Of a DNA stretch of 64,000 bases, positions 9,899 to 47,417 are shown one piece after another (within the stretch, counting starts at the first letter, position 1; each line of letters begins with the position of its first letter). The notes under the pieces are model-generated. The model was not told where the DNA came from and made no database searches. It was given only the letters and a program-made list of their open reading frames with translations. Source of the DNA: Fuerstiella sp. (GTDB lineage Bacteria > Planctomycetota > Planctomycetia > Planctomycetales > Planctomycetaceae); assembly GCA_022447225.1 (NCBI GenBank), contig JAKVAZ010000011.1:1-64000 (forward strand), given 5' to 3'. Both the position numbers and the translations under genes were made by a program.

Positions 9899-11089
9899 TT
9901 ATGGCCATGGATCAAGACAGGCGCCACTCGGTCGTGGTCCGGTTGGTCTCCATGGGATTGATTCGTACGATTGATACGACACATCAAGCCAGGGAGTTTC
10001 CAGACGTTGGTGCCCGTTCAGACGTGAGGTCAGGGCTGCCTCCAGCACACCAGTCGTTAAAAGGGTGCGTTCCACCGGATAAGCCGGTACTCCGCTGAGA
10101 AACATGTCTTCCACATTGAGTGACAGATAAGCAAAGTGGGCAAACGGTCCCTCGATGACATCACCGTGGCCCTGGGCATAAAACTCCGTGGCCACAATTC
10201 CGTCAGTCGTTCGGGCCGCATACGCTAAATCGCGGACGTATCCTTCGAGCATCAGAGCCACGCCGCGAAATCCGTCGCGATACTCAACCAGTATCACTGC
10301 CGGATTGCTGCAATGTTCTTCAATACGTCCATCCGGTTTGTTCTCGATCGTTGAGCATGCCGCCTCTGCCAGTTCGCGTGACCAGTGTCCGTCATCAGCA
10401 GCCTGCCAGACGGCGTCACCTTCCAGACAGGTCACCGCGGCGACACCGCTTTCTCCGCCTGCTCGGCGCTCCACCATGCACTCCAGCACTTCCAGCGTAT
10501 GGAACCCGTAAATATCGAGCCCGGAGAACCCGATGGCAACAGCCTCGGACATTTCCGTGTTGCGATCATGCTCCAGCCACGGGTTCCGCCACACAAGCGG
10601 CAGTGAGGATCCCGCCATGAACGGTATGTCCAGTTCCGCAGCACGATCGACCATCCATTTTGCATCATGCCAGTTCCAGGACAGGTGCTTGTCGTTGAAA
10701 ACCGGTATGGCACGGTCGCCGGTGGCGATCACACCACAGATTTGCTCCATGAAATATTTACGAGGAAAAAGTTGCTGTTCTTTTTCATTCCATGCGTAGT
10801 CCCCATGCTCACCGATCAGCAGTACGCCGTCGACAGCCAGTTTGTCCCCGCCCAGCGTCAGTGCCTTGACGATACTGGGATAGACCGGGACATCGTGCTC
10901 GTCAGCAATCGCGCGCCCCACGTCGTTCTCAGTGAACTGATCAATGTACATTGAGACCAGATCGACTCGAGGTGCGTGCCGACCCTCGTCAGTCGGAAAC
11001 CCCTTGAGGAACTTCGTCACTACAACATCGGCATGGGAGCCGGCAAAATACTCGGTAATGATGGCAGCAATACGTTGACGTTCGGGCAT
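9899..11089 (-). CDS. Conserved-looking protein of unknown function (396 aa)
   Basis: A soluble protein without signal peptide. Well-structured segments look conserved: PTDEGRHAPRVDLVSMYIDQF, AVDGVLLIGEHGDYAWNEK, VFNDKHLSWNWHDAKWMVDRA and PFMAGSSLPLVWRNPWLE. His, Asp and Glu residues in these segments could bind metal. The N-terminal third has Rossmann-like spacing (VVVTKFLKG, then DEHDVPVYPSIVKALT, then VDGVLLIGEHG), reminiscent of the cofactor half of Gfo/Idh proteins, but the GxGxxG loop is missing. It starts 2 nt after the stop of the MFS transporter gene, so the two are probably coupled and may handle one substrate. I cannot assign a function. Confidence 0.8.
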   Translation of the reverse strand: MPERQRIAAIITEYFAGSHADVVVTKFLKGFPTDEGRHAPRVDLVSMYIDQFTENDVGRAIADEHDVPVYPSIVKALTLGGDKLAVDGVLLIGEHGDYAWNEKEQQLFPRKYFMEQICGVIATGDRAIPVFNDKHLSWNWHDAKWMVDRAAELDIPFMAGSSLPLVWRNPWLEHDRNTEMSEAVAIGFSGLDIYGFHTLEVLECMVERRAGGESGVAAVTCLEGDAVWQAADDGHWSRELAEAACSTIENKPDGRIEEHCSNPAVILVEYRDGFRGVALMLEGYVRDLAYAARTTDGIVATEFYAQGHGDVIEGPFAHFAYLSLNVEDMFLSGVPAYPVERTLLTTGVLEAALTSRLNGHQRLETPWLDVSYQSYESIPWRPTGPRPSGACLDPWP

Positions 11090-11091
11090 GA

Positions 11092-12429
11092 TCAGTCAGC
11101 CTGCGGAGTGGCGCGGAAATCTTTTCTCAATGTGAATACAATAAGAACCACGAGCAACCCGGCGCCGACACCGAGTACGATGGCATAGACCAGAAACACA
11201 GATCGCAGATCTGTGATGGAGCCCGTGTCGCGGAGGTAGCCGATGACCGGGTAGGGCCAGGTTCCCAGTACCGAAACCACGTTTAAGAGCCCAATGGCGG
11301 TCGAGCGCGCCGCCGGATCGACAACCTCGAACGTGGTGGTCCACAGATTCGAGAAATACAGCCAAACCCCGACTCCACAGATGAACAAGGCCGTCTGGAT
11401 TACGATCGGGTGTTCAACTGTTGCGATGACGAAGATCGCAGGAACTCCGATGATCAGGCCGGCAATCTGTACGAGAAATCTGCCCGACATATGCCGCCGG
11501 GAGAGAAAATCGGCCAGGATGCCGCCTGTGAGGATGCCGATGGCTGCACCAATCTGAGGGGCCAGGGTCGCCATCAGGCCGGACTCCCCAAGATTCATCC
11601 CATAGTGTTCTTCAAAATGCTTAGGCAGAAAGTAGCTCAACTGCTGCCAGACGTTGCCAACCAGAACATAGGCCAACCCCAACAGCAGAAAACTGGGGAC
11701 GATCAATACAGCCTGGATCGTCCCGACCAGTGTACTGCCGGATTTGCCGAGCCCGGTGTCGCCACGCTCGGTTCGGTCCGGTTCTCGCAACAGCGCGCAG
11801 AGAGTGGCCACAACGACCAGTCCGAGGCCTGCGAACCAAAATATCATAACCCGCCAGCTGAACACATCGGCAAGTGTTCCACCGGCCCAGCCCGCCATGA
11901 CGACCGCAACCGGCGAGGAGAGCAAATAGATGGCGACAGCACGGGAACGGTTTTGCTGAGTAAAACAGTCCGCCATGATTCCGGCAATCGCCGGGACACT
12001 CGCTGCCTGTGCCGCCGCAGACAAAATCCGCAGAATCAGGAAGTCGTAAAAACCCTGTGCACACCCGATGCCCGCCAGCAGTACAGTACTCAAACTGAGT
12101 GCCACGATGAGGATCGAACGCCGACGGAACCGATCGCTCAGATAGGCGACAAAGAGTGCCGACAGTGAATACGTTATCTGCCAGGCCAGCGTGGCAGAAT
12201 GCAGTTGGCTTTCACTGAGATTCAGTTCCTTAAGCAGCGGTGTCTGAATGAAGGTGAAAACGCTGCGGTGCGTGTAGAGGATGAAATAGTTGAGCAACAG
12301 CAGGCTGAGAATGAACCATCGGTCGGGAACGCCGTGTGCGGACGGCATTGAAACGGCTGGTCTGTCTGACTGTAACCCGGCTGGCCGTTGAGAGGAGGTG
12401 TCTCCATCTGTTGGTTTGGATCCTTTCAT
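11092..12429 (-). CDS. MFS transporter
   Basis: Inner-membrane permease, 445 aa, with about 12 hydrophobic segments starting at WFILSLLLLNYFILY. The MFS loop 2-3 motif appears as YLSDRFRRRSI (residues about 98-108), the usual D-R-x-G-R-R region. TM segments such as FLLLGLAYVLVGNVW and LLVVLIVFTL flank a central loop with basic and acidic residues. The N-terminal 35 residues are hydrophilic. It is followed after 2 nt by the 396-aa unknown protein and preceded by the MenC-like enzyme, so it probably imports the substrate of this cluster. Substrate not predictable. Confidence 0.88.
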   Translation of the reverse strand: MKGSKPTDGDTSSQRPAGLQSDRPAVSMPSAHGVPDRWFILSLLLLNYFILYTHRSVFTFIQTPLLKELNLSESQLHSATLAWQITYSLSALFVAYLSDRFRRRSILIVALSLSTVLLAGIGCAQGFYDFLILRILSAAAQAASVPAIAGIMADCFTQQNRSRAVAIYLLSSPVAVVMAGWAGGTLADVFSWRVMIFWFAGLGLVVVATLCALLREPDRTERGDTGLGKSGSTLVGTIQAVLIVPSFLLLGLAYVLVGNVWQQLSYFLPKHFEEHYGMNLGESGLMATLAPQIGAAIGILTGGILADFLSRRHMSGRFLVQIAGLIIGVPAIFVIATVEHPIVIQTALFICGVGVWLYFSNLWTTTFEVVDPAARSTAIGLLNVVSVLGTWPYPVIGYLRDTGSITDLRSVFLVYAIVLGVGAGLLVVLIVFTLRKDFRATPQAD

Positions 12430-38496: not shown

Positions 38497-38611
38497 TTGG
38501 ATTCTGGCACAGGCAGATCTCGGCGACCAGTTATTTGTCAGTCGCTGTGCGTTGTTTGAGTGACCTTCTTATGTGCACTCCGCGAAATCAACTGAGACAG
38601 GAGCAACAGTC

Positions 38612-39985
38612 GTGAACAAACTTTTTTCGTGGTGCCGCATTGTGGTGCCGTGTTTTATTTTGCTGGCCGGAACAGCAGCGTTGGGGCAGGACGATGCTGC
38701 CACAGCGGAGCCTGTGGCAGAAGAAGCTTCAATTCCCGTGGAATTCATCGTCCACAACCTATGGATCATGATTGCGGGAATGCTGGTGTTCATCATGCAC
38801 CTGGGTTTTGCCACTCTTGAAAGCGGTCTGACCCGATCGAAAAACACTGTCAACATCCTGTTCAAGAATACCATGATCATCTGTATCGGTTTTCTGACCT
38901 ATCTGTTGATGGGCTTTAATCTGATGTACCCTGGTTTTGATGATCCCTCCACCGGGTATTTCGGGTTTGCCGGTTTTGATTTCATGATGAATGGAGCTGC
39001 ACAGGCCAGTGACCCGGCCTTCTCATCGCCAGCCTATAATGAAGGCTATACCGCTTACACAGACTTCTTCTTCCAGGCCATGTTTGCTGCGACGTGTGCC
39101 ACGATTGTTTCAGGAGCTGTGGCCGGTCGAGTGAAACTGTCCTCGTTTCTTCTGTTCAGCACCTTGTTCGTATCCATCTGTTATCCCGTTACCGGTTCCT
39201 GGAAATGGGGGGGCGGCTGGCTTGACGATCGAGGTTTCTATGATTTTGCAGGTTCAACACTGGTCCATTCGGTTGGAGGCTGGGGTGCCTTGGTGATGGC
39301 ATGGTTGCTGGGTGCGCGAAAAGGAAAATATGTAGATGGGAAATCCAGACCCATACCCGCAAGTAATCTGACATTGGCAGCCATCGGAGTATTTCTGCTT
39401 TGGCTTGGCTGGTTTGGTTTCAACGGAGGGTCGGTGCTGAGTGCTGATCCCGGACTGGTTTCTCTGGTGCTGGTTACAACTTCAACTGCGGCTGCTGCCG
39501 GTGGACTTGCCGCAGCGATTACCTCATGGGTTCACGGGGGAAGACCGGACCTCAGTATGGGACTCAACGGCATACTTGCAGGCCTCGTTGGTATTACAGC
39601 GGGTGCGGATCAGATGTCCGGTCTGGATTCACTGTTGATCGGGTTGATCGCGGGAATCTTGGTTTACTTTGCCGTACTTTTCGTTGACACCGTTCTCAAG
39701 ATTGACGACCCCGTGGGGGCAGTCAGTGTCCACCTGGTGTGTGGCATCTGGGGCACGCTGGCGGTCGGACTGTTCGGTGCAATGGCCGGTGCCGACCAGC
39801 TCATGAAACAACTGACCGGCATCGTGTCAATCGGTGCCTTTACTGTTGTCTTTTGTCTGGTTCTTGGGTCTGTCTTGAAAGCGACGATGGGAATCCGTGT
39901 GAGTCTCGAAGACGAAGAGATCGGGCTGGATATCAGTGAGCACGGGATGGAAGCCTACGCTCTGAGCCCAACACGAATGCACTGA
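38612..39985 (+). CDS. amtB: Ammonium transporter
   Basis: Inner-membrane ammonium channel, about 457 aa. GTG at 38612 is chosen as start because GGAG lies 8 nt upstream and a signal peptide follows (IVVPCFILLAGTAALGQD), as in many Amt proteins. About eleven TM helices; key pieces are FATLESGLTRSKNTVNI, the first pore histidine in STLVHSVGGWGAL, and the second in AVSVHLVCGIWGTL. The tail VSLEDEEIGLDISEHGMEAY is the usual PII-interacting end. A PII gene follows at 40187, and a sigma-54 promoter precedes, so the pair is under nitrogen control. Confidence 0.95.
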   Translation: MNKLFSWCRIVVPCFILLAGTAALGQDDAATAEPVAEEASIPVEFIVHNLWIMIAGMLVFIMHLGFATLESGLTRSKNTVNILFKNTMIICIGFLTYLLMGFNLMYPGFDDPSTGYFGFAGFDFMMNGAAQASDPAFSSPAYNEGYTAYTDFFFQAMFAATCATIVSGAVAGRVKLSSFLLFSTLFVSICYPVTGSWKWGGGWLDDRGFYDFAGSTLVHSVGGWGALVMAWLLGARKGKYVDGKSRPIPASNLTLAAIGVFLLWLGWFGFNGGSVLSADPGLVSLVLVTTSTAAAAGGLAAAITSWVHGGRPDLSMGLNGILAGLVGITAGADQMSGLDSLLIGLIAGILVYFAVLFVDTVLKIDDPVGAVSVHLVCGIWGTLAVGLFGAMAGADQLMKQLTGIVSIGAFTVVFCLVLGSVLKATMGIRVSLEDEEIGLDISEHGMEAYALSPTRMH

Positions 39986-40008
39986 GTCATTCTGAAAAAC
40001 GGCCCCGA

Positions 40009-40057
40009 AACGAAGAGAGGCCGGAGTTGTATGACTGGTCTCTCTTCGTTTTTTTTT
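40009..40057 (+). terminator. Intrinsic terminator after amtB
   Basis: AACGAAGAGAGGCC (40009-40022) pairs with GGTCTCTCTTCGTT (40037-40050) with one G-T wobble, and a run of nine Ts extends to 40057. It lies 24 nt after the amtB stop and should separate most amtB transcripts from glnB. Confidence 0.92.
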
Positions 40058-40186
40058 ATGTGTCGTGTGGCACAGTGTTGATATACGTTTCAGGACATCC
40101 CTGGCAGGAACCAGAGCCCGGGTTTCGCTTCAAGTCAGGCCTCGTACTCATTCAAAAATCCGGCATCTACCAGCAGAAAGCTGATC

Positions 40187-40525
40187 ATGAAGAAAATTGA
40201 ATCTGTCGTTCGACATTACAAGCTCGAGGACATTAAGTCGGCCCTCACAGCCGTTGGAGTTCTTGGTATGACTGTTAGTGAAGTCCGGGGCTTCGGACGA
40301 CAGCGCGGTCACAAAGAAACTTACCGCGGTGCTGAGTACACCGTCGATTTTATGCCCAAGGTCAAAGTTGAAGTCGTCGTTGACGATGACAAATGCGAAG
40401 AGACCATCAAGGTCATTTGTGAGTCAGCAAGGACCGGTCAGATCGGTGACGGAAAGGTATTTGTGTCGTCGTTGGAACAGGTCGTCCGCATCCGGACCGG
40501 GGAAACCGGTCAGGAAGCGATCTGA
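40187..40525 (+). CDS. glnB: Nitrogen regulatory protein PII (GlnB/GlnK)
   Basis: 112-aa trimeric signal protein that senses 2-oxoglutarate, ATP/ADP and glutamine status. The T-loop has Y51 at the standard uridylylation position (ETYRGAEYTVDF). GQIGDGKVFVSSLEQVVRIRTGETG is the C-terminal PII signature. Linkage to amtB suggests the GlnK role of plugging AmtB under high ammonium. The strong terminator upstream suggests its own promoter or partial read-through. Confidence 0.96.
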   Translation: MKKIESVVRHYKLEDIKSALTAVGVLGMTVSEVRGFGRQRGHKETYRGAEYTVDFMPKVKVEVVVDDDKCEETIKVICESARTGQIGDGKVFVSSLEQVVRIRTGETGQEAI

Positions 40526-40576
40526 TCTGAGGACCGGGCGACGAGGTTGGTGCCAAAATGACCGTATGGTTAGGTT

Positions 40577-40620
40577 CAGGGCCTCGGGTTCCGGCCCTGT
40601 CCCCTCAAGGCGGAACCCGA
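40577..40620. terminator. Two mutually exclusive hairpins downstream of glnB
   Basis: Hairpin A pairs CAGGGCC (40577-40583) with GGCCCTG (40593-40599). Hairpin B pairs TCGGGTTCCG (40584-40593) with CGGAACCCGA (40611-40620). They share 40584-40593, so only one can form at a time. Confidence 0.55.
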
Positions 40621-40627
40621 ACGCAAA

Positions 40628-40658
40628 CAGGGCCGACAGATCTTTGCTGTCGGCCCTG
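40628..40658. terminator. Hairpin between convergent glnB and rpsR
   Basis: CAGGGCCGACAG (40628-40639) pairs perfectly with CTGTCGGCCCTG (40647-40658) over a 7-nt loop, a 12-bp stem. It sits 26 nt after the rpsR stop and about 100 nt after glnB, probably ending transcription from both sides. T-tracts are weak (TTTGCGTT on the minus strand). Confidence 0.75.
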
Positions 40659-40683
40659 TGTACTGGTCCGGTTGATGAATCAG

Positions 40684-40965
40684 TTATTCATCTGCCACAA
40701 ACGGGAGCAGGCCGATAAACCGAGCACGCATCACGGCGGTTCGTACGGCACGTTGATAAATGGCTGATGTTCCCGTACGACGTCGTGGCAAAATACGGCC
40801 CTCCCTATCGATAAGAGAACGGAGTACCTTCAGGTCCTTGTAGTCGACATACACGGGCCGCGGTACCACACCGTTCGGACAAAACGGGCACTCCATCTTC
40901 TTCTTTTTGAGACGAGCGCGCCGCCTGCGCAACTTTTTAAGATCAGCTTTTGAGATTGTAGGCAT
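40684..40965 (-). CDS. rpsR: 30S ribosomal protein S18
   Basis: Small-subunit ribosomal protein. From [11 protein letters not shown] at 40965 the product is about 93 aa; ATG codons at 40977 and 40995 would add 4 or 10 residues, and no Shine-Dalgarno sequence decides. The S18 core is clear: [50 protein letters not shown]. The CPFCPNG segment corresponds to the cysteine-containing, zinc-binding form. The N-terminus is very lysine/arginine rich ([15 protein letters not shown]). It is alone here, without rpsF or rplI next to it. Confidence 0.93.
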
Positions 40966-41045
40966 GGGATTAATCATTCTGCCACAGCGGTTCACTGCAG
41001 CGACAGAGCATCGGGATCGGGCTGGTGTGTCCCCGTAAAGTCTTA

Positions 41046-41453: not shown

Positions 41454-42797
41454 CTACTCTCGGTGGAAACGTCGAGCCTTCAGGTCAAATCTGGGCAGTG
41501 AACCAGGGCTGACGATTCTTACTTCGCAGACAAATCCCAGCCTCTGTCTCAATGCGTCCGAGACACGAGTCTGCAGTTCGCCCGAATCGGCTGAAAACGA
41601 TTCGACTGTCACCAGCAACTCATGCATCGCCCGGACGGTCCGGACATCGATTCGGAATTCAGCCACTTCATCGATTTCACGCAGTACTGCCTCGACACTC
41701 GATGGAAACACGTTGTTGCCGCGAATTGTCACCATGTCGTCAGACCGACCTAAAATGCCGCCTTCCAGCCACAGCAGTTGACGACCGGCAGGATCTTTTG
41801 CCGTCGATGCACGCACCAGGTCCCGCGTTCGATATCGGATCAATGGTGATCCAGTTCGACCAAGATTTGTAATCAACAGTTCTCCTGTAGTGCCTTCCTG
41901 CACTGGTTCCAGAGATTGCGGATCGACAATTTCCGCAATTGTTTCTGTTTCCAGCAGATACATCCCGCCGGGCCGATCAAAAGATTCAATTCCCAGGGAA
42001 CCGATTTCTGTCATTCCCCAGTGGTCGATGACTCGTGCGTTCCAGGCTTGTTCGATACGACTGCGAGTCGCAGGAATGGCTCCACCCGGCTCTCCGGCCA
42101 CAATCAGCATACGGACGGTAGACTCATGCAGATCTATGTTGTTCTGTTGTGCCAGTTCTGCCATTCGCAGAGCATAAGTGGGAGTGCAGCAGACAATAGT
42201 GGCTTCGTTTTCAATCATTGCCCTCAGACGAATTTCGGTTGTCATTCCTCCACCGGCCAGACAAAAATTTCCGATCCGCCCTGCTCCCTCAAATGCCGCC
42301 CAGAAACCAATAAACGGTCCAAACGAAAACGGGAAAAAAAAACGATCGTCCGGAGTTATACCTGCCAGAAGATAAATCTGTCGCCAGCATTCCATGATTC
42401 CATCCCAGCTGGCTGCCGTGTCCAGCCAGCGCATCGGTCGTCCTGTGGTCCCAGATGTCTGGTGCAGGCGGCAATATCTGTTGGGAGGATAGGTGAGATT
42501 TATCCCGTATGGTGGTTGTGCTTCCTGTCCGTCCACCAGTTCCTGCTTGGATGTCACCGGTAACTGATGCAGGTTTTTCAAACCGTCAATGTCCGAGATA
42601 TCAATCCCGGTAAATTTCCGGTCATAGAACCGATTACGAGGTATGATCTCCGTCAGCATTTCCCGGAGTCGTCGCGACTGAATCTCACGAATTGACTTCC
42701 GGTCGCACCAGATGTGCTCGATCGACGTGGTCACTCTGTTACCTTCTTTGAATGGCTGATCAAGTCGTCGTTTTGTATCGGTGTTGCTGACTGTCAA
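41454..42797 (-). CDS. Phenylacetate-CoA ligase-like AMP-binding enzyme
   Basis: 447-aa member of the adenylate-forming family, PaaK-like. AMP-binding motif LHQTSGTTGRPMRW, then CTPTYALRMAEL, VAGEPGGAIPATRSRIEQ, DHWGMTEIGSLGIE, the RYRTRDLVR segment and the C-terminal GRSDDMVTIRGNNVFPSSVE followed by LPRFDLKARRF, whose lysine would be catalytic. It probably activates a carboxylic acid (aryl or fatty) to an acyl-AMP for CoA or ACP loading. It is the last gene of the run KAS - ACP - FAD oxidoreductase - ligase on the minus strand, so the ACP at 44488 is a plausible acceptor. A later GTG start near VTTSIEHIW is possible. Confidence 0.88.
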   Translation of the reverse strand: MTVSNTDTKRRLDQPFKEGNRVTTSIEHIWCDRKSIREIQSRRLREMLTEIIPRNRFYDRKFTGIDISDIDGLKNLHQLPVTSKQELVDGQEAQPPYGINLTYPPNRYCRLHQTSGTTGRPMRWLDTAASWDGIMECWRQIYLLAGITPDDRFFFPFSFGPFIGFWAAFEGAGRIGNFCLAGGGMTTEIRLRAMIENEATIVCCTPTYALRMAELAQQNNIDLHESTVRMLIVAGEPGGAIPATRSRIEQAWNARVIDHWGMTEIGSLGIESFDRPGGMYLLETETIAEIVDPQSLEPVQEGTTGELLITNLGRTGSPLIRYRTRDLVRASTAKDPAGRQLLWLEGGILGRSDDMVTIRGNNVFPSSVEAVLREIDEVAEFRIDVRTVRAMHELLVTVESFSADSGELQTRVSDALRQRLGFVCEVRIVSPGSLPRFDLKARRFHRE

Positions 42798-42969
42798 TTC
42801 GTCTACCGATCAACAACAGACCTTCGGATGACGTTCCGACGATTCCACCACACATACAAACGGGCTTAGTTCAACGGTGCTGTCAGCAACTGATCTGTAC
42901 GACATCATCGGCCCGCCGGCAACGCAGCAGACCGGAAAACTAAACTGTTTTTTTGTGCGATGTGGTGAT

Positions 42970-44430
42970 CTACTTAAGTAGATACCGATTGGCGATTGTG
43001 ATGCCCGACAACATAGCGCCGACAATCCCCAGAAAGCCCTGATCGGTACCGCACAGATACAGGTTGTCTACAGGTGTCTGACCATCGACGAACTTACGAG
43101 GTGCACCGTAAACACAGCCGTTATCATGCCCGGTAAATCGACGAATTGTGCGGGGGGTAAATACATCCGTGTCGAGTACGTGCGCACGAAAGTCGGGGAT
43201 ATGTTTCAGTGCCGTGCGGATGATGCGGTCATTCCATTCCATCTTACGAAGCTGATAGTCTTCTTCTGACAGCGAAATCCAGTAGTCCGGATCCGCAAGT
43301 GCTGTGATTCGAACTCTGCCATCTTCCAGAGGCCTGGAGTAGTCAAAGTTGTTTGGTGAACAAATGATTCCGCTGCGCAGATCAACCGGATCATTTGGTC
43401 GTTCATAATGGAATTCATCAGCATCATTAAAGAAAACGATGGTTTCATTATGTCCCAGGTCCGACGGCTCACAGTCCAGAACAGATATTGATTCCACGAA
43501 TGAAATGTTTCCTGGACTCGGTCGACTGACGGACTGTGTCGGGTCGACCATTCGCATTGTTTCTGCCGCTCCGGCGGACGACAGTACGTTGTTAGCTTTG
43601 ATCTCAGTACCGTCTTCAAGAATGACGGAACTGGCCTGGCCATTGTGCTGCACGATTTCCTGTACGCCTGCCCGCAGTTTGAGATGGCCGCCAAGTGATT
43701 TGAAGTGTCTGACGAGCTGCTTCAGGATTCGGCGGATGCCATCAAACGGTCGTCCAAAACCTTCGTAAAATATACTCTTAAACATAATCACAAACTGACT
43801 GAAATCCATGTCTCGAGGTGTTGCGCTGCCGTAAAACATCAACGGACAGAAGAGCATGTCGATGAGCATTGGATCGCTGATATGTTCACTGAGGACCTGC
43901 CGTGCCGAAACGGACTTGCGATTCAGGTCGAGGGCGTCATGCTCATTGATTTTTTGCAGCAGACGGCAAAACCCGTCGATTTGCTTGGGGAACGCTTCAG
44001 CGATATCGGTCAGAAGGCAATTGAAATCATTTGTGAAATTCAACACACAGTCCGGGAATGCGACTTTTGACTGCAGTTGAGGACGCAGGTCAAAATCTTC
44101 CCATCTCATTCTCAACTGTCTGAGCAACTTGCTGAGTGGTCCGGCTTTCGTTCCCGGTTCTGCATAATTTGTGATTGCGTGAAGACCAACATCGTAGTTG
44201 CGGTTGCGAAGGCGGTAGAACGAATTGAGCCCGCCGATCGTGGTGTGGCGTTCAAGAATGCAGACGCTTTTTTCAAAATAGGCCAGTCGGACTCCCGCTG
44301 AGAGGCCCGACATTCCTGCACCAATGATCACGGTATCATATTTAACCGGCAGACGTTCCTGGGGTGATTCGTCCATAAGCGGAATGCAACCCCCGTCGAT
44401 CTTTTGATCGTCCGGCGGGAATGGTGACAC
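42970..44430 (-). CDS. FAD-dependent phytoene desaturase/carotene isomerase-like oxidoreductase
   Basis: 486 aa. Dinucleotide-binding motif VIIGAGMSGLSAGVRLAYFEKSV at about residue 33 is followed by LERHTTIGGLNSFYR, the second conserved strand of the CrtI/CrtISO family. The middle holds GFGRPFDGIRRILKQLVRHFKSLGG and EIKANNVLSSAGAAETMRM. The C-terminus, NLYLCGTDQGFLGIVGAMLSGITIANRYL, is the usual FAD-contact end. No carotenoid gene is nearby. It sits between the ACP and the AMP-ligase, so the substrate is more likely an acyl chain on the ACP, for desaturation or double-bond isomerisation. A start at the second Met (MDESPQERL) is also reasonable. Confidence 0.85.
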   Translation of the reverse strand: MSPFPPDDQKIDGGCIPLMDESPQERLPVKYDTVIIGAGMSGLSAGVRLAYFEKSVCILERHTTIGGLNSFYRLRNRNYDVGLHAITNYAEPGTKAGPLSKLLRQLRMRWEDFDLRPQLQSKVAFPDCVLNFTNDFNCLLTDIAEAFPKQIDGFCRLLQKINEHDALDLNRKSVSARQVLSEHISDPMLIDMLFCPLMFYGSATPRDMDFSQFVIMFKSIFYEGFGRPFDGIRRILKQLVRHFKSLGGHLKLRAGVQEIVQHNGQASSVILEDGTEIKANNVLSSAGAAETMRMVDPTQSVSRPSPGNISFVESISVLDCEPSDLGHNETIVFFNDADEFHYERPNDPVDLRSGIICSPNNFDYSRPLEDGRVRITALADPDYWISLSEEDYQLRKMEWNDRIIRTALKHIPDFRAHVLDTDVFTPRTIRRFTGHDNGCVYGAPRKFVDGQTPVDNLYLCGTDQGFLGIVGAMLSGITIANRYLLK

Positions 44431-44487
44431 ATGATTGATACAGCAGGTGATGACTTTGATTTTACATCACAGTCATCTGCCCGCCCG

Positions 44488-44754
44488 CTACCCCGCCATG
44501 GATATGTCTTTAAGACGAGGTTCCAGATAGGCGACAGTGGTCGCCATAGTCGTCAGGTGTTCGTACTCGTCTTCCGGGATCTGAATTCGATAGGCTTTTC
44601 GTAATTCCATTACGATGTCAAGGAAGTCCATGCTGTCGAGTTCCATTTGTTCGCGGAACGCCACTGCATCATCCAGATCGGACAGATCTTCATCCGGAGC
44701 TATCCGCTCCAGAATATCAAGTATGACCTGTCTGATCTCCTCACCCGTCATCAA
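44488..44754 (-). CDS. Acyl carrier protein
   Basis: 88 aa, acidic, four-helix ACP. The phosphopantetheine serine is S41 in QMELDSMDFLDIVMEL, where canonical ACPs have DSLD. EVxG-type sequence at the third helix reads IQIPEDEYEHLTTMATTVAYL. Not the housekeeping AcpP by sequence (DSMDF, long N-terminus). It lies 74 nt after the KAS gene and 57 nt before the oxidoreductase, so it is the dedicated carrier of this operon. Confidence 0.9.
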   Translation of the reverse strand: MMTGEEIRQVILDILERIAPDEDLSDLDDAVAFREQMELDSMDFLDIVMELRKAYRIQIPEDEYEHLTTMATTVAYLEPRLKDISMAG

Positions 44755-44828
44755 TCGACCCTCTCAAGAACGTCAACCGCCAAATAAATATGTGCCCGTT
44801 AAGGCAGAAGTGCCAACTCCGGACTGGT

Positions 44829-46064
44829 TCATCCTTCGTACTTCTGAACGATCAACACAGAGTTGATTCCCAGCATTCCAAAGGAATTGTTCAGGATGCT
44901 ACGAACTTTCCCGATATCGCGGGGCTGATTCACCACCAGTTGATCGAGGTTGCACCTCGGGTCGGGACAGTCAACATTGATTGTAGCGTGGGCCTTCCCA
45001 TCGTCAAACGACGGCAAATTTCCCAGTAACTCCAAAGCCCCTGCGGCGCCCATCGCATGTCCGATGAAACTTTTGGTATTGTTTACGACGGCATTTGTTC
45101 CGCCGAACACCTCCCCGAGTGCGGTCGCCTCTTCAATATCTCCCTGCTCTGTTGCCGTGGCATGACTGCTCACGAGGTCAACATCATGTTGAGTGATTCC
45201 TGCTCGTGAAAGTGCCAGCCGCATGCATTCTGCCTGTCTCTCAGAATTGGGCAGCACAAAGTCACTGGCGTCGGAATTCATTGCATGACCAATGATTTCT
45301 CCGTAGATAGTTGCACCCCGTTTCAGGGCATCGGGGAGTCGTTCCAGAACGCAGATTCCCCCTCCCTCTGCCACTACGATGCCGTTGCGGGAGTTATCGA
45401 ACGGACGACTGGCTCGTGTGGGGTCTTCGTGAGTGGCAAGTGCGCCCTGGCTCTGGAAGCTGGCAAAGATGCCGAAAGTATGGATGCTCTCTGAAACACC
45501 GCCGGCAATGGCGATGTCAACTTCGTTCAGCCGCAGCATTTGCAGACCCTGAATGAAGCCCGCGTTACCGGCAGCGCAGGCAGCCCCCACTGTTAGGTGA
45601 GGTCCTGTGATGCCGAGGTTGAGAGTGACCTCACCGGCCGGGTTGTTGGCCACTGTACGCGGATTATGGTGGTGGGACCAGACTTTAGTGTCATACTCGA
45701 ACTGAGAGATTTCATGGATCTCGTTTTCGGTTTCCACGTTGCCGTGTTCCGTAATGCCAAGATACACGCCGACGCGGCATTTCTCGACACTGTCCCAGTC
45801 CAGTTCAGCATGTCTGACGGCTTCATTGGAGCAGTAAATCGCTACAGATCCTGCCCGCGTGCCACGACGGACTTCTCTGCGCGACTGGTAGCGCAGTTCA
45901 TCGAAGTTACACACACCCGCCAGAACCGGCGGCATGTATCGGGTTTCGTAGTTCACGACGCCCGACTGTCCCTTCAGCAGGTTGTGCCGAAATTCGTTCA
46001 GGCTGTTTCCATTGGGAGCGGTGAGCCCAATTCCAGTGATGACAATACGATCGTTGACGGGCAC
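44829..46064 (-). CDS. Beta-ketoacyl-ACP synthase (FabF-type, cluster-specific)
   Basis: 411-aa condensing enzyme, thiolase fold. Catalytic set present but with unusual surroundings: nucleophile C163 in VGAACAAGNAGF, H301 in SSHATATEQGD (FabF normally NAHGTST) and H336 in KSFIGHAMGAAG. FDNSRNGIVVAEGGGICVLE and NNSFGMLGINSVLI complete the family pattern. The altered pocket motifs suggest a substrate other than standard fatty-acyl chains. It is the first gene of a four-gene minus-strand operon with ACP, FAD oxidoreductase and AMP-ligase, and probably extends an acyl chain on that ACP. Confidence 0.9.
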   Translation of the reverse strand: MPVNDRIVITGIGLTAPNGNSLNEFRHNLLKGQSGVVNYETRYMPPVLAGVCNFDELRYQSRREVRRGTRAGSVAIYCSNEAVRHAELDWDSVEKCRVGVYLGITEHGNVETENEIHEISQFEYDTKVWSHHHNPRTVANNPAGEVTLNLGITGPHLTVGAACAAGNAGFIQGLQMLRLNEVDIAIAGGVSESIHTFGIFASFQSQGALATHEDPTRASRPFDNSRNGIVVAEGGGICVLERLPDALKRGATIYGEIIGHAMNSDASDFVLPNSERQAECMRLALSRAGITQHDVDLVSSHATATEQGDIEEATALGEVFGGTNAVVNNTKSFIGHAMGAAGALELLGNLPSFDDGKAHATINVDCPDPRCNLDQLVVNQPRDIGKVRSILNNSFGMLGINSVLIVQKYEG

Positions 46065-46331: not shown

Positions 46332-47417
46332 TCAGACTCGCGACAGTTTGGACACTCGGCCGCTTCCGACCCATTCTGCTACGAAGATATTCCCTTCGGA
46401 ATCGAAGCATGCGTCGTGAGGATGGATGAACTGACCGTTGAGCCACCGGTCAGGTTTAACGCGAAGATTGTCAATTTCGCTGATACGCTCCACTGCTGCT
46501 CCCAGGTGAGCAACCACCTGATTGTTTTCGTTGAGCAGAGTGACTCGCGCTTTCAGTTCAGGGACCAGCATTAGGTTTTTCCAGGTGTCAATATTGGCAG
46601 GCAGGCCATATCCCTCATATGTCTGCTTGTAGCGGCCTTCCTGGGTGAATGTCTGCAACGTGCCGTGAGCACGATCGGTAACCACAATTTCAGCCGCCCG
46701 ACCTTTGCGATTATCCAGCCACAGACCATGGGCGGTATTGAAGGTGCCCTTTCCTTCACCTGGCCCGCCAAAACAGCTGAGCCAGTTGGCATCTTTGTCG
46801 TAGCGGTGAATTTGAAAGGATCCATAGCCGTCAGCCAGCCAGAACCCGCCGTCGTCGGCAAACGCGAAATTGGTTGGCATAAAGCGATCGCGTCCCCATA
46901 TCTTCTGCCGGTCTGTGTCTTCGTTCGCAGCATAAACGCCTGATTCCATGGGGGCATATTTTTCCCAGACGATTTCGCCGGTCAGTGTCATTTTTGAAAA
47001 CGCTTTGACCTGCTGATATCCGGTGACGTACAGAAATTCTTCGCTGCCCTCTTTGCGCACTTCCAGTCCGTGTCCACCTCCCTGAAATCGACTGCCAAAT
47101 GCCCGTATGAATCTGCCTTCACTGTCGAAAACAAATATCGACGGATGATCCGGCTGGTCTACTCTTCCTTCATGGATCACATACAGATTCGCTTCAGTGT
47201 CGACCGCCACATTGTGTGTTGTCTGCCAGTTGTATCGGTCAGGGAGTTGCGGCCATGCATGTTTGACACGGTAGCGATATTCACCCTCACCCACGATCAC
47301 TTCGTTGGTCGTACGTCGGGCCATCAGGACCTGTGGTGTTCCGGCCATGCTCATTGCAGCAGTCACACTGGCGCTCAGAAACATTCGCCGCGTGTCGGGG
47401 ACTGCAGATTTTGACAT
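46332..47417 (-). CDS. Secreted NHL / six-bladed beta-propeller protein
   Basis: 361 aa with a Tat-like leader (DTRRMFLSASVTAAMSMAG). Repeats of NHL/peptidyl-alpha-hydroxyglycine-lyase type: TTHNVAVDTEANLYVIHEG, SIFVFDSEGRFIRAFGSRF, NFAFADDGGFWLADGYG, NTAHGLWLDN, IHPHDACFDSEGNIFVAEWVGSGRVSKL. The substrate is unknown; planctomycetes have many of these. It is not clearly part of the KAS operon, as 267 bp separate them. Confidence 0.83.
   Translation of the reverse strand: MSKSAVPDTRRMFLSASVTAAMSMAGTPQVLMARRTTNEVIVGEGEYRYRVKHAWPQLPDRYNWQTTHNVAVDTEANLYVIHEGRVDQPDHPSIFVFDSEGRFIRAFGSRFQGGGHGLEVRKEGSEEFLYVTGYQQVKAFSKMTLTGEIVWEKYAPMESGVYAANEDTDRQKIWGRDRFMPTNFAFADDGGFWLADGYGSFQIHRYDKDANWLSCFGGPGEGKGTFNTAHGLWLDNRKGRAAEIVVTDRAHGTLQTFTQEGRYKQTYEGYGLPANIDTWKNLMLVPELKARVTLLNENNQVVAHLGAAVERISEIDNLRVKPDRWLNGQFIHPHDACFDSEGNIFVAEWVGSGRVSKLSRV

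Follow-up and report, generated by a model that had tools for sequence, protein, structure and literature searches.

A KAS-ACP gene cassette with two CrtI-family flavoproteins in Fuerstiella as a candidate source of polyunsaturated chains for OleA

Background

In Shewanella, formation of the polyunsaturated olefin C31:9 (3,6,9,12,15,19,22,25,28-hentriacontanonaene) depends on the Pfa synthase and proceeds via OleABCD (PMC6463001). Desulfotalea psychrophila makes C31:8 and C31:9, and according to Rattray et al. 2009 its genome revealed neither a polyketide pathway to polyunsaturated fatty acids (PUFA) nor another of the known PUFA routes; a route based on type II fatty acid synthesis (FASII) with phytoene-dehydrogenase-like enzymes was proposed there for its PUFA and hydrocarbons (PMC2649909). 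According to the same paper, some Planctomycetes are also known to contain such hydrocarbons, for which it refers to Schlesneria, Singulisphaera and Nichols 1995 (PMC2649909); Schlesneria is classified in the Planctomycetaceae. A third described system, the anammox ladderane genes kuste3603-3607, comprises the enzyme classes ACP, FabZ, FabF and phytoene desaturase (PMC4790861). Here we analyze a stretch of 64,000 nucleotides from a member of the Planctomycetaceae, Fuerstiella sp. (GCA_022447225.1, contig JAKVAZ010000011.1, positions 1 to 64,000; hereafter the window), which encodes a ketoacyl synthase (KAS), an acyl carrier protein (ACP) and a CrtI-like flavin adenine dinucleotide (FAD) oxidoreductase (CrtI1). 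Together with a second CrtI-like protein (CrtI2), these proteins probably belong to a dedicated type II synthase that makes polyunsaturated chains for OleA and replaces Pfa in this role, the most likely product being C31:9 or C31:8.

Results and discussion

The genes for KAS (44829-46064), ACP (44488-44754) and CrtI1 (42970-44430) follow one another on the minus strand of the window, and behind them, on the same strand, lies a gene for a PaaK-like AMP-forming acyl ligase (41454-42797). The gaps are 74 nt between KAS and ACP, 57 nt between ACP and CrtI1 and 172 nt between CrtI1 and the ligase. A preliminary description of this DNA had called the four genes an orphan operon on one strand with gaps of 57 to 172 nt, and had suggested an unusual polyunsaturated or modified lipid as a plausible product. 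Strand and spacing are as given there. The cassette is no orphan, as partners are encoded elsewhere in the same genome (G000; in our labels, G stands for genomes and L for loci compared, and C for contigs): CrtI2 (C6:588366-589784), OleA (C21:12652-13695; 390 bits with PRK09258, above the cut-off of 285) and an OleC-like protein (C12:141110-142720) that is 50% identical to its counterpart in L072.

We surveyed 59 genomes, that is, the window's own and 58 from its genus, family and class. CrtI1 scores above 500 bits in 35 of them, and these 35 genomes, without exception, also have a KAS ortholog (above 700 bits in 33, split in G013 and G022); the best KAS of the remaining 24 genomes reaches at most 325 bits. 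CrtI2 is found in these 35 genomes and nowhere else in the set (split in G013, partial in G019). KAS shares the CrtI1 locus in 25 of the 35 genomes, once as a partial gene, and in the other 10 the genes lie apart or contigs end. The ligase adjoins the cassette at two of the 35 loci, namely in the window and in L042 from the same genus; in L043, also of this genus, the contig stops after CrtI1. Because co-occurrence is exact even where the genes are unlinked, and the ligase is adjacent in two cases only, the functional unit is KAS, ACP, CrtI1 and CrtI2 rather than a four-gene operon. A conserved four-gene unit is ruled out by the two ligase-bearing loci among 35, and what is conserved as a gene row is KAS-ACP-CrtI1. 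For the functional unit, the linkage and co-occurrence for which a neighbourhood survey had been recommended are strong. In a phylum-wide sample, CrtI1 was detected at E <= 1e-40 in 66 of 294 genomes.

As C31:9 of Shewanella needs Pfa, we examined the distribution of PfaA in the same 59 genomes. Strong PfaA, defined by a threshold set after the scores had been seen (a best piece above 700 bits or, in G042, two adjoining pieces), occurs in 20 genomes, of which only G039 also has the cassette. The cassette alone is present in 34 genomes, Pfa alone in 19, and neither in 5, a near-exclusion with a Fisher p of 5e-10 if relatedness is ignored; the corresponding numbers within the window's family are 30, 5 and 2, with no genome having both. 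OleA was detected in 34 of the 35 cassette genomes and in 18 of the 19 Pfa-only genomes, and in none of the 5 genomes with neither. In the OleA tree, 17 of the 18 OleA sequences of Pfa genomes group in a single clade (100/100). Five of these 17 come from the window's family, and they stand in this clade, apart from their cassette-bearing relatives; OleA therefore follows the supplier more than taxonomy. Given the near-exclusion, the presence of OleA with either supplier and OleA clades that track the supplier, the cassette behaves as a substitute for Pfa in supplying OleA with chains.

A physical association with ole genes is seen in other families and phyla. In three loci from one other family of the same class (L070, L072, L073) the cassette stands together with OleC- and OleD-like genes, and L073 also carries OleA; the OleA of the relatives reaches 441 bits and passes the cut-off of 285. 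A RimK-type ATP-grasp ligase and an N-terminal zinc-ribbon protein accompany OleC, OleD and the cassette in all three. Among 20 loci sampled outside the window's family but within the phylum, KAS was found in 16, CrtI2 in 15 and at least one OleA-, OleC- or OleD-like gene in 14, each within the fetched stretch. A scan of named genomes yielded 80 loci, of which 35 were treated as CrtI1-bearing; left out were L195 (71% identity along 55 residues, where a contig ends) and the partial L219 (37%). The CrtI1 proteins of these 35 named loci show about 40-81% identity, with 81% for L155, labelled uncultured Planctomycetaceae. By their labels the loci belong to Planctomycetota, Verrucomicrobiota (Opitutales, Pelagicoccus), Nitrospinota, Thermodesulfobacteriota (Desulfocapsa), Bdellovibrionota, "Deltaproteobacteria" and two bins with doubtful labels. 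In 30 of them CrtI1 follows KAS and ACP, 16 contain an OleA-, OleC- or OleD-like gene within the locus, and 31 of the 35 genomes encode OleA somewhere. Cassettes occur in L163 and L192, bins labelled Chloroflexi and Pseudomonadales, with OleA undetected in both genomes; the label of L192 probably reflects a misbinned contig, since its KAS and the one from G075 (L117), a member of the window's phylum, are identical.

Further enzymes recur in these clusters. A FabG-type ketoreductase was found in 15 loci (at a distance from the cassette in L119 and L180), and 23 loci encode an OleB-like alpha/beta hydrolase; three proteins of each group were scanned with Pfam, and two FabG-like proteins and one OleB-like protein with NCBIfam. 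FabZ- and FabI-like genes are likewise present in cassette clusters of relatives. Pooled over several clusters, the set comprises all four Ole classes and, besides KAS, ACP and the two CrtI flavoproteins, a ketoreductase, a dehydratase and a FabI-like reductase.

A number of observations weigh against the cassette being the chain supplier of OleA. If the post-hoc threshold is replaced by the curated cut-off for PfaA (TIGR02813, 1010.1 bits), PfaA is left in 13 of the 59 genomes; 12 of these lack the cassette, all 12 have OleA, and OleA is then also present in 6 of the 12 genomes with neither supplier. At the other extreme, any PfaA match at E <= 1e-40 is found in 45 of the 59 genomes. The OleA tree has exceptions: the Pfa row L254 sits amid cassette rows and has a long branch, and L114 (cassette) and L267 (both) stand next to the Pfa clade in weakly supported positions. 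OleA was not detected in the cassette genome G023 and in 4 of the 35 named cassette genomes, nor OleC in the cassette genome G021, and OleC-like genes are also found in 17 of the 24 genomes without the cassette. OleC and OleD of the relatives are best matches of their models and stay below the cut-offs (OleC of L072 569 of 900 bits with the olefin beta-lactone synthetase model, OleD 405 of 580). An Ole gene lies close to the cassette in only one of 30 loci of the window's family and in 4 of 35 overall, a count that omits OleD-like matches of 30% identity in L068 and L075. Some genomes are incomplete: in G016 an OleC-like gene (53%) was found and neither the cassette nor strong Pfa or OleA was detected, absences that may reflect missing genes because the assembly is 78% complete. 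Finally, action of a CrtI-type enzyme on acyl-ACP would, to our knowledge, be without precedent.

Another source and another destination of the acyl chain are conceivable. The window's genome encodes a 3110-aa polyketide synthase with the domain order KS-KS-AT-ACPx3-KR-DH (C1:398562-407894, corresponding to L143:3563-12895), which contains the genome's best PfaA piece, a weak match of 271 bits that falls short of the curated 1010.1 bits. This enzyme could supply or contribute chains, a weak alternative that would speak against the proposed role of the cassette; in 13 of the 35 cassette genomes, though, PfaA gave no match at E <= 1e-40. The cassette might, on the other hand, make a polyunsaturated or modified fatty acid for membrane lipids, with an indirect tie to ole genes as both would serve membrane adaptation. 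The rarity of neighbouring ole genes in the window's family, the cassette genomes in which OleA was not detected (G023 and the four named ones) and the adjoining PaaK-like ligase, which could activate a free acid, are in line with such a role. The absence of OleA from all five genomes without either supplier (with the stricter Pfa cut-off, OleA is present in six of 12), the OleA clades that track the supplier and the clustering of Ole genes with the cassette in several phyla are not, and we consider the membrane-lipid explanation unlikely.

The individual proteins were compared with Pfam and NCBIfam profiles. KAS is a FabF-superfamily condensing enzyme (Pfam ketoacyl-synt, 133.8 bits) that scores 305.4 bits with the FabF model TIGR03150, below the cut-off of 493.75. 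In the KAS tree (88 rows gathered, 2 short rows removed, 24 loci thinned, 62 used; sequences with stops or fewer than 300 aligned residues did not enter the collection), a single clade (100/100) unites 48 window-type rows and includes neither E. coli FabF and FabB nor the genome's own FabF (L142). The score and the tree rule out a duplicate of housekeeping FabF, and the phylogeny asked for in the preliminary description places KAS apart from it. As KAS stands apart from FabF, and linkage and co-occurrence are strong, the central idea of that description survives: of the possible product classes, an unusual polyunsaturated lipid has the best support. Its remark on non-standard surroundings of the active site is correct in that the letters around the catalytic residues differ from FabF; the residues themselves (Cys163, His301, Lys331, His336), the set of an active elongating KAS, are intact and invariant in a 23-row alignment, so that the site as such is not odd.

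The KAS alignment used for scoring (23 of 24 rows) contains one paralog in error (L049, 27% identity), which raises its own score in G006 to 518 bits; presence calls are unaffected because G006 also has a 782-bit ortholog. L049 is a rearranged cassette, with a divergent KAS (10523-11788, 27-28% identity) beside CrtI1 and the KAS ortholog of G006 (C1:6292155-6293393) about 400 kb from that CrtI1. In 15 loci (among them L111, L116, L172 and L193) a small protein is encoded just upstream of KAS; the two that were scanned (L172, L193) show weak matches to MarR/ArsR-type helix-turn-helix domains, which makes this protein a candidate regulator of the cluster.

ACP matches Pfam PP-binding with 32.9 bits, with ELDSMDFLDIVMEL around the phosphopantetheine serine, and sits between KAS and CrtI1 wherever the locus includes KAS. 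CrtI1 belongs to the CrtI/CrtISO superfamily (Pfam Amino_oxidase, 54.9 bits; NAD_binding_8). Its AlphaFold2 (AF2) model has a predicted local distance difference test (pLDDT) score of 90.1, and the first 27 residues of the open reading frame fall below 50; as the frames of several relatives begin just before YDTIIIGAG, the true start is probably Met19 (base 44376). The predicted model of CrtI2 has a pLDDT of 79.2. The nearest solved folds of CrtI1 in a Foldseek comparison are 4rep, a gamma-carotene desaturase (template modelling score, by query, 0.72), and 4dgk, CrtI (0.56). In the CrtI tree (58 rows from 45 sources, 44 loci and the window; frames shorter than 380 aa or alignments under 300 were excluded, and L202, L204, L205, L217 and L223 gave no row), CrtI1 and CrtI2 form separate clades of 25 and 19 rows, each with 100/100. 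The CrtI1 alignment comprises 27 of 34 grouped frames, overlong and partial ones being excluded.

The likeness of CrtI1 to phytoene desaturases that had been pointed out earlier thus extends to the CrtI fold and the Rossmann domain and ends at the family cut-offs for carotenoid enzymes: CrtI1 reaches 93.5 of 586.9 bits with TIGR02730 and 55.2 of 238.1 with TIGR02734. The fold would suit a C30 or other carotenoid step whose gene merely lies beside KAS and ACP; against this stand the distant cut-offs (93.5 of 586.9 bits) and the exact co-occurrence with KAS, and two members of the wider family, kuste3336 and kuste3607, reportedly showed no phytoene-desaturase-like activity (PMC4790861). Such an arrangement is very improbable, and on family cut-offs and co-occurrence we ruled out a carotenoid step. 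The earlier statement that no carotenoid gene is near can be upheld for the four genes and the three neighbours scanned with Pfam.

Both CrtI1 and CrtI2 match carotenoid isomerase best or nearly best, far under the cut-off. This would also be compatible with a conjugated polyene or an aryl-polyene or flexirubin-like pigment, in whose synthesis the CrtI-type enzymes would be isomerases or aromatising dehydrogenases. The third-best NCBIfam match of the ligase is the flexirubin protein FlxY (155 of 520 bits), and the FabG of the clusters matches FlxB (237 and 233 of 340 bits). The 21 families listed for KAS include no model for flexirubin or aryl polyenes, and the FabI-like reductase and the ole genes in the clusters do not fit a pigment, which we therefore regard as improbable.

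The ligase itself (Pfam AMP-binding, 50.3 bits; AMP-binding_C_2, 56.9 bits) scores 199.9 bits with the PaaK model TIGR02155, short of the cut-off of 646.3, and no second copy was found in the window's genome. It is an AMP-binding ligase of the PaaK group and a genus-level neighbour outside the conserved core. In the window's genus it might re-load released acid as acyl-CoA for OleA, a role we mention with reserve.

In the anammox ladderane clusters, too, KAS and CrtI adjoin, together with FabZ (kuste3603-3608; PMC4790861). Anammox-type KAS and CrtI are represented in our comparison by L194 (Ca. Brocadia) and L196 (labelled Planctomycetes RIFCSPHIGHO2_12_FULL_52_36), the latter with the order FabZ-KAS-KAS-CrtI-radical SAM/B12, which is that of kuste3604-3608 (PMC4790861). 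In contrast to the window's proteins, the KASs of both loci fall outside the window-type KAS clade and their CrtIs outside the CrtI1 and CrtI2 clades; the order of the deep branches is not claimed, as these are long and weakly resolved in both trees. L198, labelled Zixiibacteriota and thus not anammox by label, has an anammox-type KAS pair and CrtI together with a weak tryptophan-halogenase-like gene. A ladderane-like pathway would account for the shared enzyme classes (kuste3603-3607; PMC4790861); the trees speak against it, as would the radical SAM/B12 gene that adjoins CrtI in L196, for which a Pfam scan limited to the four genes and three of their neighbours found no counterpart, and we consider it extremely improbable. 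Membership in the ladderane family is ruled out by the KAS and CrtI trees, and of the kinship with ladderane loci proposed earlier an analogy of enzyme classes is left.

Another parallel is D. psychrophila, which combines FASII genes with phytoene-dehydrogenase-like genes, two of them with the consecutive tags DP2405 and DP2406, and whose measured C31:8 and C31:9 correspond to the product proposed here (PMC2649909). It differs in that the paper grouped its clusters with anammox clusters and radical SAM enzymes (PMC2649909), whereas the window-type core is a separate KAS/CrtI1/CrtI2 set tied to ole genes; this comparison is by description. Desulfotalea is assigned to the Desulfocapsaceae (NCBI). 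In the family of the Desulfocapsa locus L182, CrtI1 scores above 340 bits in 76 of 79 sampled genomes, including that of L182, and many have, among the matches listed, a second CrtI match right beside CrtI1; the link of Desulfotalea to the cassette is at the family level. The four genes had been put forward as the best candidate for an undescribed pathway in the window. A FASII route was already proposed in 2009 for Desulfotalea (PMC2649909), and no account of the gene set as an alternative to Pfa was found in titles and abstract openings of the papers listed, a search with most subscription journals outside its scope. With the Shewanella system the window's genome would share, in addition to a supplier of polyunsaturated chains, the Ole pathway, of which its OleA passes PRK09258; the supplier there is the PfaA megasynthase (PMC6463001), and here it would be discrete KAS, ACP and FabG-, FabZ- and FabI-like enzymes with two CrtI flavoproteins.

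From these comparisons we infer how the product could arise. KAS, ACP, CrtI1 and CrtI2, together with FabG-, FabZ- and FabI-like enzymes, would form a synthase of discrete enzymes, with a dedicated ACP as the carrier of the growing polyunsaturated acyl chains. On this ACP the chain would be elongated by KAS, and the FabG-, FabZ- and FabI-like enzymes, which are known from the clusters of relatives, would carry out reduction, dehydration and enoyl reduction of each unit. The double bonds would result from flavin chemistry of CrtI1 and CrtI2, which would be acyl-ACP desaturases (by dehydrogenation) or enoyl isomerases. OleA would then couple two chains head to head with the loss of one carbon, and OleB, OleC and OleD would finish the long polyunsaturated olefin; from its name, C31:9 should consist of two C16:4 (4,7,10,13) halves. 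FabX of Helicobacter pylori makes monounsaturated acids. It resembles the proposed CrtI function in being a flavoprotein dehydrogenase/isomerase that acts on acyl-ACP in unsaturated fatty acid synthesis, and differs in belonging to the FMN/[4Fe-4S] nitronate-monooxygenase family, not the CrtI family (PMC8626469).

Around the cassette, the window encodes an NHL-repeat protein just upstream of KAS (46332-47417, minus strand), which reaches 42 of the 350 bits required by the scytonemin model ScyF; an NHL-repeat protein is also close to the cassette in L042 and L043. Downstream (38573-40995) lie an ammonium transporter and a P-II regulator on the plus strand, followed by a minus-strand gene that presumably resembles ribosomal protein S18.

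Conclusions

Taken as a whole, the interpretation given in the preliminary description is partly supported. A more far-reaching proposal, which we advance tentatively, is that the cassette represents a Pfa-independent machine, distributed by record labels over at least five phyla, in which a pair of CrtI-family flavoproteins, working without O2, gives ACP-bound chains their all-cis, methylene-interrupted double bonds in the service of OleA. If this is true, CrtI-type enzymes would act as acyl-chain desaturases or isomerases outside isoprenoid metabolism and would thus enter fatty-acid chemistry, and the CrtI of ladderane loci would be a distant cousin of the same chemistry. The cassette provides a concrete gene list for the question of what makes the polyunsaturated halves of C31:9, and this gene set is now set apart from the ladderane genes, although the Desulfotalea clusters have been discussed together with the latter. 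Whether the supplier of a given strain is Pfa or the cassette would become predictable from its genome.

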